A stretch of 64,000 bases of DNA, taken from contig OZ020491.1 of the NCBI GenBank assembly GCA_963971405.1, positions 25,600,855 to 25,664,854 of the forward strand, in the 5' to 3' direction. The stretch is from Psococerastis gibbosa. Its lineage: Eukaryota > Arthropoda > Insecta > Psocodea > Psocidae. Position numbers and translations under genes: made by a program. This document shows positions 1,217 to 54,834 of the stretch, piece by piece. The first letter of the stretch is position 1; each line of letters opens with the position of its first letter. The notes below the pieces were generated by a model. That model was not told the origin of the DNA, did not search any database, and was given only the letters and a program-made list of their open reading frames with translations.

Positions 1217-4200
1217 GTTTATCACAGTAATTCTTGGTCTAGTCGCACTAAATTACGTAGCAGTATCCTTTACGGAAACGATAAAAAGTTCTGCGCCTAT
1301 GTTTACCGTGTTAATAGCGCGGTGTCTTCTGGGAGAGAGAACGGGACTTTGGGTAAACCTGTCGCTAATACCTGTCATGGCCGGCCTTGCGTTGGCGTCT
1401 GCTACTGAGCTGAGCTTCGATATGCGAGGATTTGTCGCGGCTATGCTGACAAACGTAACGGAATGGTGAGTTTTATTTTGCGTAAAGTCAAATTTCATAG
1501 GAAATATCAATGAAGGAGCCTTCATTTGGGAATTAATAGGAGGAAGAAATGTTCCTCCTCATGTTAATGTTTAGTATGCGACTGTCAGGACATGTAGAGT
1601 AGTGGTACAGACTCCGACTTTCATCCGAAAGGTTGTTGGTTCGAGTCCCACCCTTGCTACATTTTTTGGCCATGCTTCGGTGGGCCTGTAAAGCAGGCTT
1701 TCCTAGTTGAGTGTCAGAGAGGGCTTTATAGCCTTAACTCCTCCAGGTAGGCTTAGTAATAGAACTGAAAGTCAGTATTATTTTTTTACTAACACCAATT
1801 GGCCATAGATGGGGCTACTGAGTTGAGCTTCGATATGGCGCAAATTCCACCGACCTCGTTTGTGATAGTGATAGCGGACATTAAAGGCAGTCTAAAAATG
1901 TCTGCTACCACGTCAATAACTATCACAAACTAGGTCGGTGGAATTTGCGCCTATGCGAGGATTTGTCGTGCCAATGCTGACTAACGTAACGGAATACTGA
2001 ATTTTTTCGCACACTGTCAAATTATATCGATCGATGGAGTATCATTTGGACATTCGTAAACAGAAGGAGTGCTCCTTTTTTACCGATTCACACCTTGAGC
2101 TTCAACTATACACCAGTGTCTCTTCAGTCCTCATGGAAATCCCAGCTACATTCATCTTCGAGGACACGGAGTGAGTCCCCAGCTACCGGCTATGCTCCTG
2201 CATGTAGCGAGGAACGTCTTAAAATTGTCAAAATATCGAAAATCTATGCAAATTTCTATTTCAGCCTGCAAAACGTCTACTCAAAAATGTTGATAAGCGG
2301 TGAGAAGTACCGATTCACGCCGGCTGAGCTCCAACTATACACCAGTGTCTCTTCAGTCCTCGTGCAAATCCCAGCTACATTCATCTTCGTGGACACGGAG
2401 CGAGTCCTCAGCTCTACTGACGCGACGCAGCTGGCTGCGTTCATCCTAAATGGCATATTCTTTCATTTCCAATCAATATCAGCGTATGTTCTTATGGACT
2501 ATATTAGTCCCGTCACGCACAGGTGGGTTAGAATTAATCATCAATAGCTTGCTGAAACAATAAGGGATCGTAGAAAATCGCCACTCTACAGTCTGGAAAT
2601 TGTACTATTATTATTAATTAACTGGGGGATTAGTTAAAGATGTTGTCTATTTAAGTTTTGAAGACTTAGTATCTTAGTATTTTTTTTTGTTTGTTTTGTT
2701 AAGAGCAATTCGTAATGCCCCCACTACGCGTTTTATGGAGATTGAGATTGAGACGGCGACCAATGTTCTACTTCCGAAAAATTTCTTCACAACTTTTCAT
2801 TTCATGACCCCCTGAGTCTAAAACCACCCTCCGTTCAAAATATTGTAAATATATACTGTATGTACGTGGCTGGTCCGACAAGTGCTTAGCCTACAAAAGA
2901 AGAACGAAAATTTTGGAATAGTGGCGATTTATTTCTCAACATTGGCTCCTTTTAACTCGATACACTTGACCCAGCGATTCTCAAACTTCTTTAACCCGTC
3001 TGAAAAAAATGTTTCCTCGAGGTCAGCAAAATAGGCCTCCGTAGCGGCGATGACCTCCTCATTCGACTCAAATTTCTGCCCGGCGAGTGACTTTTTCATG
3101 TTTGGAAGAAAAATTCGCATGCCGTCAAATCTGGAGAATATAGTGGATGGAGGCCCAATTTGACCTATTTGTCCGTGTCAAGGGCGGACGTGTGAGTCAG
3201 TGCGTTGTCATGGTGGAAGATCACTTTTTTCTTCACCAAATGGGGCTGTTCTTTCCGCCATTCGAGGTCGAATCGGCCCAATAATGCAGCATAGCATAGC
3301 CCTGTGATCGTTTTACCCTTCTCCAGGTAGTCGATGTAGATAACACCTTTTGAGTCCCAGAAAACGGGACCATCCCCTTTCCGGCCAACCGAGAACAATT
3401 TTCGCCTTCTGAGCACGTTCTCCGGGTACAGTCCACTGTTTCGACTGTTCCTTGGGCTCTGGTGTACCAGTTGATCCATGTTTCGTCAACGGTCATGAAA
3501 CGACGCAGAAACTCCTTCGGATTTCGCTTAAACAGCGTCAAACACTGCTCTGAAGTGGTTACGTGGTTGCGCTTGTTGTCCAGAGTGAGCAAATGTGGCA
3601 CACATTGCGCCGACAGCTTTCTCATGCCCGAAATTTCATGCAGGGTATAACCCTCTTGGTCTTTTGAAATGCCTACTGTCTCCGCTATCTCACACAACTT
3701 CAATTAGCAGTCTGCCAATACGAGATCGTGGGCTTTTGTCGTATTATCCTCCGTAGAAGCCGATTTCGGGGCATCTGGGCGTGGCTCATCAAAAACCGAC
3801 GTGTGACCACGTTGAAGCTAGTTAAACCAATTTTTGACGGGCGCCATCGAAGGAGAAGAGTCACCGTACACAGCTACCAAGCGCTCTTTGATTTCGCTGC
3901 GCGATTTCTCTTCCGAAAACCAGAATCTAATCACCGATCGATAATGTTCTTTTTCCATTTTCCTAAAATCCGCAACACGCCCCTCTTCTACAAGTGGGCA
4001 AAACAAAACCACTAGTCCGATTCGACTGAAATTTTGACAGACGCCGTCTACTGGAGTGTACTATACGATTTTAAATGACACTTGCGATAGTGGCGCCATG
4101 GGACAGTGAGGCTAAGTACTTGTCGGACCAGCCACGTATGTATGTACTGTACATATATCGATTTTAGGAAATATTATTCGAATTTGATGGGACTTGGCAC

Positions 4201-5530
4201 AAAAATTGATCACACAAATGTCTTGATCGAGTTCGTTAACCAGCAGGATCCGCCATTTTGTTGCAAGATGGTGGCCGATTGAAACCTTATAAAATGTATA
4301 TCTCAGTTAAAATTAGTCGCAGAGGAATGAAATAAAATCTGACTGAAAGCCCGTATTATTGTCTAATAACCTAAATAATGGTTATCAACGATTTCAAGAT
4401 GGCGCCCAGTCAAAGGGAAAATAACATGATACTTAATTAAAAGTTCATTGTCGCCATTGTGTACTATACATAGTGTACTATACGATTTTAAATGACACTT
4501 GCGATAGTGGCGCCATGGGACAGTGAGGCTAAGTACTTGTCGGACCAGCCACGTATGTATGTACTGTACATATATCGATTTTAGGAAATATTATTCGAAT
4601 TTGATGGGACTTGGCACAAAAATTGATCACACAAATGTCTTGATCGAGTTCGTTAACCAGCAGGATCCGCCATTTTGTTGCAAGATGGTGGCCGATTGAA
4701 ACCTTATAAAATGTATATCTCAGTTAAAATTAGTCGCAGAGGAATGAAATAAAATCTGACTGAAAGCCCGTATTATTGTCTAATAACCTAAATAATGGTT
4801 ATCAACGATTTCAAGATGGCGCCCAGTCAAAGGGAAAATAACATGATACTTAATTAAAAGTTCATTGTCGCCATTGTGGTTTGAAATTTGAAACAATGAG
4901 GAACAAGTGTTGTTTTACTGCCAAGGTAGATAGATATATCGACCTGGGACTATTTAAATTGAGTGTGAAGTATTGCACCCAATGGGGTTCATATGTGGCG
5001 TCATTTTGTAGATGGCAGCACCAGTTGCAATGATATCAAAGCGTTGATTTTTCCATAAGCCTCAATACTATTTTAAAATGATTTTTAATTATGTATTATT
5101 TTAAAGTGAAATTTTTCTATAAATCATGGAGAATATATATATTAAATTATATGCAGCGAAATAAGGTCCAGGCATAGTAAAAATATTATAAAAAATATTA
5201 AAAGAATTAATTAGATGCTAAGAGCTTAGTTTTCGCATGCAAACGGCGGCCATTTTGAATAATATGGATATCGGTTTGTCGTCAGCGAACCTAGTGGCCA
5301 AAACTGTCCCTACAGAACCTCATTTAAATAGTCGTACATTTCGAATTGTTTGTTTCAGTGTGGCCAACACAGCAAAAAGAGCATTCCTCATCTGGCTTTC
5401 GATAATTTTGTTTGGAAACCCGGTGACCCTGCTCAGTGCTCTCGGAACCGTGACAGTTATCGCAGGCGTTTTGCTCTACAACAAAGCCCAGGAGTATGAC
5501 GTGATAGCAAGTAGGACACAGAAAGTTTGA
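1217..5530 (+). CDS. Slc35e2: SLC35E2-type solute carrier, C-terminal part (3 exons)
   Basis: This encodes the last 225 or so residues of a solute carrier family 35 member E2 protein, a multipass Golgi/ER-type membrane transporter of the drug/metabolite transporter superfamily; its substrate is not established. Exons are 1217-1465 ([31 protein letters not shown]), 2265-2522 ([25 protein letters not shown]) and 5359-5530 ([35 protein letters not shown] stop at 5528-5530). Junctions obey GT-AG and the split codons restore conserved residues: TG|C gives the Cys of ECLQN and AG|T gives the Ser of HSVAN. Upstream exons must lie before the window. The introns hold a pseudo-exon block, a mariner and an R6 element. 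Orthology to E2 rather than E1 rests on remembered family sequence. Confidence 0.92.
1582..1783 (+). repeat. SINE-2 (tRNA-derived), nearly full copy
   Basis: A tRNA-like head (A box near 'tgtagagtagtggtacagac', B box 'ggttcgagtcc') is followed by a conserved body ('cctagttgagtgt', 'gaggctttatagcc', 'ggcttagtaatagaac') and an AT-rich tail. It lies in the first visible intron of Slc35e2. At least ten other copies or fragments occur in the window. Confidence 0.75.
1811..2180 (+). pseudogene. Decayed duplicate of Slc35e2 exon sequences, interrupted by a MITE
   Basis: The piece at 1811-1836 plus 1952-2000 repeats the end of the exon at 1217-1465 ('gctactgagttgagcttcgatat' then 'gcgaggatttgtcg...ctaacgtaacggaat'), but the donor GT is lost. 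The piece at about 2080-2180 repeats the start of the 2265-2522 exon ('ctatacaccagtgtctcttc') and runs into a TGA in the coding frame. Together they look like a tandem copy of an exon-intron-exon segment with an internal deletion. The MITE at 1837-1951 is inserted in it. No function is expected. Confidence 0.8.
1837..1951. mobile_element. GGCG-type MITE inside the Slc35e2 pseudo-exon
   Basis: A 115-bp palindrome with ends GGCGCAAATTCCACCGACC and its inverse, and the core motif ATGTCTGCTACCACGTC. The uninterrupted parent exon (1217-1465) shows the empty site 'cttcgatatgcgagg', giving a 3-bp target duplication TAT. Confidence 0.85.
2748..4136 (-). mobile_element. Mariner element within an older repeat
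   Basis: The mariner occupies 2865-4136 (about 1.27 kb). Its terminal inverted repeats begin CGTGGCTGGTCCGACAAGTG and are flanked by TA on both sides, the classic Tc1/mariner target. The flanking DNA (2748-2864 and 4137 onward) is a dispersed repeat whose uninterrupted copy is at about 29395-29815 on the opposite strand, so the empty site is visible in the same window. Confidence 0.88.
2929..3975 (-). pseudogene. Mariner transposase, frameshifted
   Basis: The cut-and-paste transposase of the mariner at 2865-4136, acting in the nucleus on its own terminal repeats. In order on the - strand: the helix-turn-helix start ([26 protein letters not shown]), the linker ([13 protein letters not shown]), the first catalytic Asp in TVDETWI, then [20 protein letters not shown] in another frame, the second Asp in HHDNALTH, and the C-terminus ([34 protein letters not shown], stop). 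At least two frame changes, near 3480 and 3120-3170, destroy the open frame. The third catalytic Asp region (YSPDL-like) is in a shifted frame. Inactive. Confidence 0.88.
4056..4877. repeat. 418-bp tandem duplication including the mariner right end
   Basis: The segment from 'gtgtactatacgatttt' at 4056 recurs at 4474 with an offset of 418 and near identity to about 4877. Each unit holds the mariner right inverted repeat and the flanking host repeat. The identity points to a recent duplication or an assembly artefact. Confidence 0.85.
4984..5321 (-). mobile_element. R6 element (AT target duplication), copy 1
   Basis: A 338-bp non-coding element. Its ends are short inverted repeats of the form GRGGTTC and it is flanked by AT on both sides. 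Other copies: 19723-20037 and 39986-40322. This copy ends 37 bp before the last Slc35e2 coding exon, so it sits in the branch-point region of that intron. A 2-bp AT duplication recalls ISL2EU-type DNA transposons, but no transposase is present. Confidence 0.75.
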
Positions 5531-54694: not shown

Positions 54695-54834
54695 GGTGGC
54701 GTTTCCATTGACCTCGTATTGCAGAATGCACATGACTTTGACGTGGTAGCAGACATAAAAGACTTATTAATGATGTCTGCTACCACGTCAACGTCATGTG
54801 CATTCTGCAATAAGAGGTCAATGGAAACGCCGCC
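54695..54834. mobile_element. GGCG-type MITE, solo form of the inner element
   Basis: Ends GGTGGCGTTTCCATTGACC and GGAAACGCCGCC match the inner element of the composites, but the centre is the shared core, so this type also moves alone. Confidence 0.85.

Follow-up and report, generated by a model that had tools for sequence, protein, structure and literature searches.

Matched variable end bases of putative PIF/Harbinger-like MITEs in Psococerastis gibbosa mostly reflect ordinary subfamilies

MITE copies in the 64-kb window

The window, as the whole analysed stretch is called here, comprises 64,000 nucleotides of Psococerastis gibbosa contig OZ020491.1 (positions 25,600,855 to 25,664,854). 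It contains the MITE copies listed below, the ends of which read GGCG, a four-base spacer NNNW, and TTCCAC. The spacers of the two ends are separated by a slash, and strand is entered as "." for every copy.

735..1111, composite MITE (class IV), ends CCCA/CCCA; inner element 806-1040, GCGT/GCGT
1837..1951, MITE, ends CAAA/CAAA; flanks TAT/TAT
5753..5895, MITE (class I relative), ends CCCA/CCCA; flanks TAA/TAA; other end begins GGTG
6427..6679, MITE, ends GGTA/GCTA
6713..6930, MITE, ends ACTA/GCTA
13133..13199, 67-bp MITE, ends CTTA/CTTA; flanks TAA/TAA
19605..20061, MITE, ends CTTA/CTTA
21355..21494, MITE, ends GGGA/GGGA; right terminus AGCG
24970..25107, MITE, ends GGGA/GGGA
28736..29128, composite MITE (class IV), ends GGGA/GGGA; inner element 28807-29057, GGGT/GGGT; flanks TAA/TAA
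33578..33836, MITE, ends GCTA/GCAA; flanks ATA/ATA
35333..35473, MITE (class I), ends GTGT/GTGT; flanks TTA/TTA
37354..37495, MITE (class I), ends GGGT/GGGT
40694..41073, composite MITE (class IV), ends CCCA/CCCA; other end AGGG; inner element 40765-41002, GCGT/GGGT
42351..42678, incomplete class IV composite, left end CCCA at 42351, right outer terminus not found; inner element 42409-42649, GCGT/GCGT
50023..50089, 67-bp MITE, ends CATA/CATA
54341..54502, MITE (class I tight clade), ends CCCA/TCCA; flanks TTA/TTA
54695..54834, MITE, ends GCGT/GCGT

Window copies are 67-457 bp long with long inverted arms, which reach 60-100 bp in many copies. The end pattern GGCG-N3W-TTCCAC has 64,480 exact matches in the 409-Mb genome (a pattern count), against 3,482 for a reversed control pattern. 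Judged by sequence, the elements are short, abundant, putatively non-coding MITEs, apparently PIF/Harbinger-like and with near-palindromic arms. The GGC/GGG terminus of PIF/Harbinger elements is present, for the counted ends by construction since GGCG was the search string; the terminus variants GGTG and AGCG were also recovered by nhmmer, and six of the 21 paired window elements have unlike bases at position 3. An exact 3-bp flank match (TAA, TTA, TAT or ATA) is found in 7/21 window elements and in 18/33 copies of the 67-bp family, leaving 14/21 and 15/33 without one; in both sets the flanks are mostly A/T only. Target-site duplication was considered as the source of the variable bases and ruled out: the spacer is repeated at the two ends as an inverted complement and not in direct orientation, and the putative 3-bp duplication at the flanks sits outside GGCG.

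Spacer matching within the window

Sixteen of the 21 paired window elements carry an identical four-base spacer at both ends, whereas none of 100,000 shuffled pairings reached 16 matches (maximum 10). The 21 elements were listed by hand from 20 of 26 computed pairs, plus 6427-6679 from nhmmer ends; the six computed pairs dropped were cross-pairings or off-pattern. The pairing threshold (21 of 30 end bases identical) biases the count slightly toward matched ends, and the elements are not all independent, because six are outer and inner partners of three nested composites. Unpaired ends, such as 42351, 43774 and 57488, and weaker nhmmer ends were left out.

The exact-complement ends named in the preliminary description (GGGA at 21355, 24970 and 28736, CTTA at 13133 and 19605, CATA at 50023, CAAA at 1837 and GTGT at 35333) are all in place. 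Its remark that CCCA copies match less exactly holds for 54341, which is CCCA/TCCA; at 5753 and 40694 the spacers match and it is the terminus that deviates (GGTG and AGGG, respectively). Across the 21 elements, mutual information between the ends is 0.92-1.60 bits at positions 5-8, comparable to the 0.45-1.51 bits at the remaining variable positions of the arm between 15 and 30 (0.0 at the almost invariant position 18). The end match in the window is therefore a general property of the near-palindromic arms.

Independent ends in the 67-bp family

The 67-bp family includes two of the copies named in the preliminary description, those at 13133 and 50023. Its 36 exact short ends in the genome were all read, and the other end was readable in 33. 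Twenty-six copies enter a CATA/CTTA 2x2 table, with TTTA treated as decayed CTTA. The counts (1/5/7/13, Fisher p=0.63) indicate that the two ends vary independently, specifically at position 6. CATA/CATA is unique to the window copy at 50023 among the 33, and one copy carries CGGT/CGGT. Derivation of CTTA/CTTA and CATA/CATA, each from a CATA/CTTA parent by copying of one end onto the opposite end, was rejected: all four combinations are present in the census, so simple assortment suffices.

Class IV composites

A first set of composites was taken in list order regardless of spacer and comprises 32 elements, 29 of them paired. Spacers are identical at both ends in 22/29, with six one-base differences and one two-base difference, compared with matches in 17-29 of 29 for neighbouring arm blocks; 21/29 are CCCA/CCCA. 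On the tree the spacer changes 10 times against 0-8 in other blocks, a small excess. A second set of 27 composites is enriched for spacer variation, its loci having been picked partly for odd or unlike spacers. It contains a CCCA clade (99/99) in which 10/11 members are CCCA/CCCA, while 10/16 composites beyond it have unlike ends, and the spacer changes 17 times against 3-9 for other blocks. From this set the spacer had appeared to be the least-matched and by far the fastest arm block. In this strong form the claim rested on the choice of loci and was abandoned because of the list-order result.

Among the 16 composites beyond the CCCA clade, position 5 is unlike in 8 (expected 9.1) and position 6 in 6 (expected 6.1); position 8 is unlike in only 1 (expected 7.7, p 0.0009). 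Base 8 is coupled between the ends where bases 5-6 are free, which hints at two end types; descent may explain this coupling. Spacer coupling within clades above that of neighbouring arm bases, which joint rewriting would predict, was not seen in the 67-bp family, with its independence at position 6, or in the list-order composites, where the spacer match is mid-range; only base 8 is clearly coupled beyond the CCCA clade.

Class I and the tight clade

Matched ends predominate among the listed pairs: 15 exact, 10 one-base and 2 multi-base in class IV (n=27); 20, 7 and 1 in class I (n=28); and 22, 2 and 1 in the tight clade (n=25). Exact matches exceed those from shuffled ends in each (15 vs 10.9, 20 vs 14.0 and 22 vs 11.5, respectively), an excess that descent would give, as would joint change.

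The tight clade (n=35) contains 17 CCCA/CCCA copies, 14 GGTA/GGTA copies and one CCCA/GGTA hybrid, L231, which falls between these two otherwise near-identical subfamilies. One of the GGTA/GGTA copies, L277, bears a CCCA-type interior. L231 and L277 together are the sequence of forms expected from a stepwise switch, though L231 could be a later recombinant. The subfamilies differ at 6/8 spacer bases and at only two central bases of the ~138-base interior; two central bases also separate the interior of the window copy at 54341 from that of L208, a GGTA/GGTA copy. The initial reading, that the interior is identical in copies with CCCA and with GGTA spacers, is weakened by this central TTG/GTT difference, which lies in columns that the tree had dropped and occurs in 11/12 copies with GGTA-type ends that retain the segment. 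An 11-bp length variant is common to CCCA and GGTA copies; it sits between direct repeats and can recur.

In three pairs of near-identical lineages, CCCA and GGTA, GGGT and GTGT, and CATA/CTTA and CGGT, each of the two ends shows a difference of 1-3 bases. For GTGT/GTGT, the window copy at 35333 has an interior 98% identical over 117 columns to that of L260 (GGGT/GAGT). Interior groups with one dominant spacer (GGGT, CCCA and GGTA), together with the CCCA clade and the CCCA/CCCA majority of list-order composites, support one of the two suggestions in the preliminary description, that many subfamilies exist, over the other, joint rewriting of the two ends.

Origin of matched and unlike spacers

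Matched window ends mostly reflect ordinary subfamilies. The mode of spacer replacement is inferred. The account that we regard as moderately probable is that single-end changes in a weakly constrained spacer were followed by amplification of mostly matched subfamilies. Ends can change singly, as shown by the independence in the 67-bp family, the CCCA/GGTA hybrid and recurring unlike pairs (CATA/CTTA, and CGGT/GGGT in composites). The transposase complex would constrain the spacer weakly, save at base 8 and perhaps 7, and base 8 seems to be of two compatible types, ending A or ending T. A new spacer would originate at a single end, either through point mutation or through a short exchange with the ends of other families that makes use of the common GGCG and TTCCAC blocks. 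Matched subfamilies could then form, because one palindromic arm is copied onto its partner or because selection favours like ends, and amplify; the window would appear strictly matched because it samples the products of several such amplifications. Some unlike-end copies differ by two or three bases. No source of a new spacer was caught, since identical flanking blocks prevent any exchange tract from being delimited. The three lineage pairs in which both ends differ while the interior has hardly changed speak against this account.

Those pairs, particularly CCCA and GGTA and the GTGT/GTGT copy so close to a GGGT-group copy, would fit a rewriting of both ends together at each transposition, for instance through repair in which the palindrome serves as template in hairpin or cruciform form. 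The 16/21 matches in the window and the CGGT/CGGT 67-bp copy also fit. As a rule, however, such rewriting is highly improbable given the independent 67-bp ends, composite spacers that match no better than neighbouring blocks, the recurrent unlike pairs and hybrid L231. It is also quite unlikely that MITEs retained their own ends while ectopic gene conversion replaced the interior, with the spacers travelling as a pair and the converted tract terminating within the TTCCAC blocks that the elements share. This would account for the unlike pair CATA/CTTA on both class II (L201, L202) and class IV (L288) interiors, and for CCCA, GGGA and GGGT each occurring on several window interiors, but the one-end hybrids (L231, L292, L294 and L301) and the free assortment in the 67-bp family need single-end events too.

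Plain point mutation in a neutral spacer, with founder copies fixing many subfamilies and no exchange, is conceivable though somewhat doubtful. Unlike pairs differ by a single base in 10/12 cases in class IV, 7/8 in class I and 6/7 among list-order composites, and Medicago PIF/Harbinger ends, in the excerpted account of PMC2213677, likewise vary between two conserved blocks. This reading fits poorly with three changed spacer bases per end between CCCA and GGTA against two of ~138 interior bases. Differences of at least two bases between ends occur in block 5-8 in 4/27 spacer-enriched composites, compared with 4 in block 49-52 and 0-2 in the remaining 13 of the 14 blocks outside the spacer; the list-order set (1/29 against 0-3 elsewhere) gives no help to exchange. 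An unlikely extension of single-end change is that the spacer acts as a modular specificity tag, which ends would trade singly through the shared blocks, with a last base that would have to agree because different transposase variants read it. If so, the genome would be a natural combinatorial record of end-recognition evolution in tens of thousands of copies.

Comparison with known elements

As excerpted, PMC9033116, PMC6850418 and PMC9921582 describe PIF/Harbinger (Tourist-like) MITEs, including mPing and mJing of rice and Helicoverpa elements, which share with those studied here a short, putatively non-coding structure, G-rich termini and, putatively, 3-bp target duplications. In contrast, no autonomous element was seen among the present copies, many have 60-100 bp arms, and families of one genome share spacers in various combinations. 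The Medicago terminal consensus, GGS-variable-GTTTG in the part of PMC2213677 available, similarly places variable bases between two conserved parts, GG(G/C) on the outside and a block on the inside; there the variation is described between families or subfamilies, whereas here it also separates copies with ~95-99% identical interiors. Coral CMITEs, as partially described in PMC2872659, also have interiors more conserved between families than their ends and retain a short terminal motif, but they are piggyBac-like, and no end assortment within a family is described in that portion.

Assays of mPing and mPong excerpted from PMC9921582 indicate that both ends contribute alike and additively. In an unpublished result quoted there, activity stayed the same when the unlike ends of mPong were converted to an exact inversion, so like ends are not strictly needed. 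This evidence comes from laboratory constructs, in which a free spacer is not the rule: base changes at both ends of mPing lowered activity at the reported positions.

An exotic repair idea gives way to a testable account of transposon end diversification, which frames the questions of which end bases are free, which agree between ends and whether families exchange ends. With ~64,000 exact ends in one genome, sequence data could reveal the rules by which a PIF/Harbinger-like transposase recognises its ends, with the caution that subfamily sampling can produce matched variable ends in a small window.

Pattern scans for relatives gave chance-like matches in viral_contigs and, among the matches listed, in genome_contigs; among the loci listed by one viral_contigs scan and by the genome_contigs scan, none had paired ends with convincing arms (L158 was judged by eye and L159 left out). 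A plasmid search with one composite as query found no match. Mariner and reverse-transcriptase fragments were also noticed.

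Element identity and genomic setting

The window is eukaryotic non-coding DNA in which the longest open reading frame with a start codon spans 219 aa; its protein matches are fragments of mariner transposase and reverse transcriptases, together with one triose-phosphate-transporter match. Its MITEs end in GGCG-NNNW-TTCCAC; their arms are near-palindromic, and their 3-bp flanks, mostly of A/T only, are identical on both sides in 7 of 21 window elements and in 18 of 33 copies of a 67-bp family. Judged by this anatomy, the elements are PIF/Harbinger-like MITEs. The assembly searched comprises 409,210,807 bases in 68 contigs, with the window at G000:C19:25600855-25664854. 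It contains the pattern GGCGNNNNTTCC 32,295 + 32,185 times and the reversed control 1,690 + 1,792 times.

Matched ends within the window

The preliminary description held that the four bases at positions 5-8 of the end (the spacer; X/Y denotes left/right) match within copies and differ between them, through either many subfamilies or joint rewriting of both ends. Re-examination reproduced its coordinates and end bases for the window copies. Of the 21 paired elements, 16 carry one spacer at both ends; none of 100,000 shuffles exceeded 10. Mutual information at other variable arm positions is comparable with that of the spacer, so the match in the window is not special to the spacer. The striking feature is instead that differing spacers can sit on interiors 89-94% identical:

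28736 (GGGA) and 40694 (CCCA), interior identity 335/356
35333 (GTGT) and 54341 (CCCA/TCCA), interior identity 107/117
1837 (CAAA) and 21355 (GGGA), interior identity 81/91

End position 3 is unlike between arms in 6 of 21 window elements, mostly GGCG versus GGTG. This is expected from CpG decay and hints at DNA methylation.

Spacer subfamilies across the genome

Class IV composites are palindromes of ~370-400 bp in which a second pair of these ends lies inside the outer one; the genome has 3,905 + 3,874 occurrences of the outer arm. Class I elements have 2,570 + 2,566 arm ends, and the first 100 listed carry GGGT (59), CCCA (14), CTTA (10) and GGTA (6), among others. Listed pairs, which need two intact ends and so are biased toward young copies, match exactly in 15 of 27 class IV cases, with a single mismatch in 10 and more in 2, and in 20 of 28 class I cases, with a single mismatch in 7 and more in 1.

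A first composite set, its loci partly selected for unusual spacers, combined 33 genomic loci with 3 window elements, of which 27 copies were kept (3 loci unpaired, 6 removed by length). Its interior tree, with 5 of 24 inner branches starred and many weak branches, as in our trees generally, contains a CCCA clade of 11 (99/99), comprising 10 CCCA/CCCA copies and one CCCA/CCGA. Of the 16 copies beyond it, the two ends agree in 6 and differ in 10; the unlike combinations include CGGT/GGGT, CCGA/GGGA, CCCA/GGGA and CATA/CTTA, and of these CGGT/GGGT and CATA/CTTA recur. The spacer changes 8 + 9 times on this tree (14 other blocks, 1-6 per end) and matches within copies in 16/27, fewer than any of the other 14 blocks, the nearest of which reach 18-19.

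Because of that selection, we drew a second set from the first 32 composites in list order, whatever their spacer, obtaining both ends in 29. CCCA/CCCA accounts for 21; spacers match exactly in 22, differ by one base in 6 and by two in 1. This match is mid-range (other blocks, 17-29), and the 7 + 3 spacer changes on the tree, though the highest total, are near those of other blocks (0-8). Most composites therefore form a single ordinary subfamily whose spacer is fixed. Coupling of the composite spacer is not unusual and its rate of change is not dramatically higher than elsewhere; its diversity lies with the fewer copies that fall outside the CCCA clade.

Inner ends of CCCA/CCCA composites (735-1111, 40694-41073 and seven fetched loci, L188, L190-L192, L194, L196 and L197) are often unlike, GGGT with GCGT recurring; the 735 composite has GCGT/GCGT. 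These ends are no longer mobile termini.

Subfamilies with fixed spacers also exist in class I. In a tree of 40 interiors, 15 copies with CCCA or GGTA spacers cluster (100/99) separately from GGGT copies, and window element 5753 (CCCA) falls outside both groups. The tight clade of CCCA and GGTA copies has 698 + 663 ends in the genome. Among 35 aligned copies, 17 are CCCA/CCCA and 14 GGTA/GGTA, with single copies of CCCA/TCCA, GGTA/GGTT, GTTA/GGTA and the hybrid CCCA/GGTA (L231). Single-end changes occur, a few of them multi-base. CCCA copies have TTG at the centre, and 11 of the 12 GGTA-type-end copies retaining the central segment have GTT; the exception, L277, combines TTG with GGTA at both ends. 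These states could form a stepwise series, from CCCA/CCCA through CCCA/GGTA and GGTA/GGTA with TTG to GGTA/GGTA with GTT, although L231 may be a recombinant rather than an intermediate.

CTTA class I ends in G000:C1:3154390-9628842 (e.g. L242, L243, L262-L264, L267) share one orientation in 9 of 10 listed cases. No partner end was found for six fetched loci; a larger amplified unit may include these ends.

Independent ends in the 67-bp family and a possible coupling elsewhere

The exact short end of the 67-bp family, which includes window elements 13133 and 50023, both named in the preliminary description, occurs 36 times in the genome. All 36 copies were read (34 fetched, 2 in the window), TTTA being scored as decayed CTTA. 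The other end was readable in 33; L321, L334 and L340 were left out, the last two terminating in AAGCGCC after small changes. The 26 copies with only CATA or CTTA comprise 1 CATA/CATA (the window copy), 5 CATA/CTTA, 7 CTTA/CATA and 13 CTTA/CTTA (Fisher p = 0.63): the two ends are independent in this family. Two further copies are CGGT/CGGT and CCGT/CGGT. L314 and L315 have their flanks in common and look like a single duplicated insertion.

Among the 16 first-set composites outside the CCCA clade, unlike bases were observed, against expectation, in 8 versus 9.1 copies at position 5, 6 versus 6.1 at position 6, 1 versus 2.8 at position 7 (p 0.06) and 1 versus 7.7 at position 8 (p 0.0009). Across the 33 copies of the 67-bp family with a readable other end, the counts are 15 versus 15.4 at position 6, and 0 versus 3.8 (p 0.001) and 3 versus 6.5 (p 0.009) at positions 7 and 8, the latter two largely from the two C[GC]GT and a few decayed copies. 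No position departs from expectation in the GGGT group. These counts hint at two compatible end types, with last spacer base A or T; because shared descent could yield the same coupling, we offer this as a hypothesis only.

Proposed mechanism

We consider it fairly probable that spacers change one end at a time and that matched subfamilies then amplify. Replacement would proceed by point mutation or by short-tract exchange between ends of different families, for which the shared GGCG and TTCCAC blocks would provide a route. A stricter reading, in which ends trade spacers singly and the last base must agree between them, as if read by transposase variants, seems unlikely. The list-order composites lower our confidence in both.

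Published work supports this setting. In mPing, mutations at either end had similar, additive effects, and converting the mPong ends into an exact inversion left activity unaltered, although most single bases at both mPing ends mattered (PMC9921582). Medicago PIF/Harbinger ends vary between two conserved blocks (PMC2213677), and coral CMITE ends are less conserved than interiors (PMC2872659). No description of end-by-end spacer change in MITEs was found among titles and abstract openings, a coverage mostly outside subscription journals.

Other repeats

A further family shares the outer end, with arms like ACTTGTCAATATTCCGTC and a spacer mostly GCTA (window 6065, 25459, 38927 and 43774; L210, L212-L215). 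GGCGTAAATTCCC ends with the same outer pattern, at window 57488 and at L165, where they run into a C/G-homopolymer repeat, probably belong to an unrelated repeat. The window also holds a 417-bp unit present as a perfect tandem duplication (4055-4878) and another kind of long inverted repeat (9698-10746 and 51013-51637; arms ~96-227 nt, 95-98% complementary). tRNA-like sequences at 11262-11334, 32347-32419, 57594-57666 and 11024-11093, three of them tRNA-Thr with anticodon ggt, are perhaps tRNA-derived SINEs.
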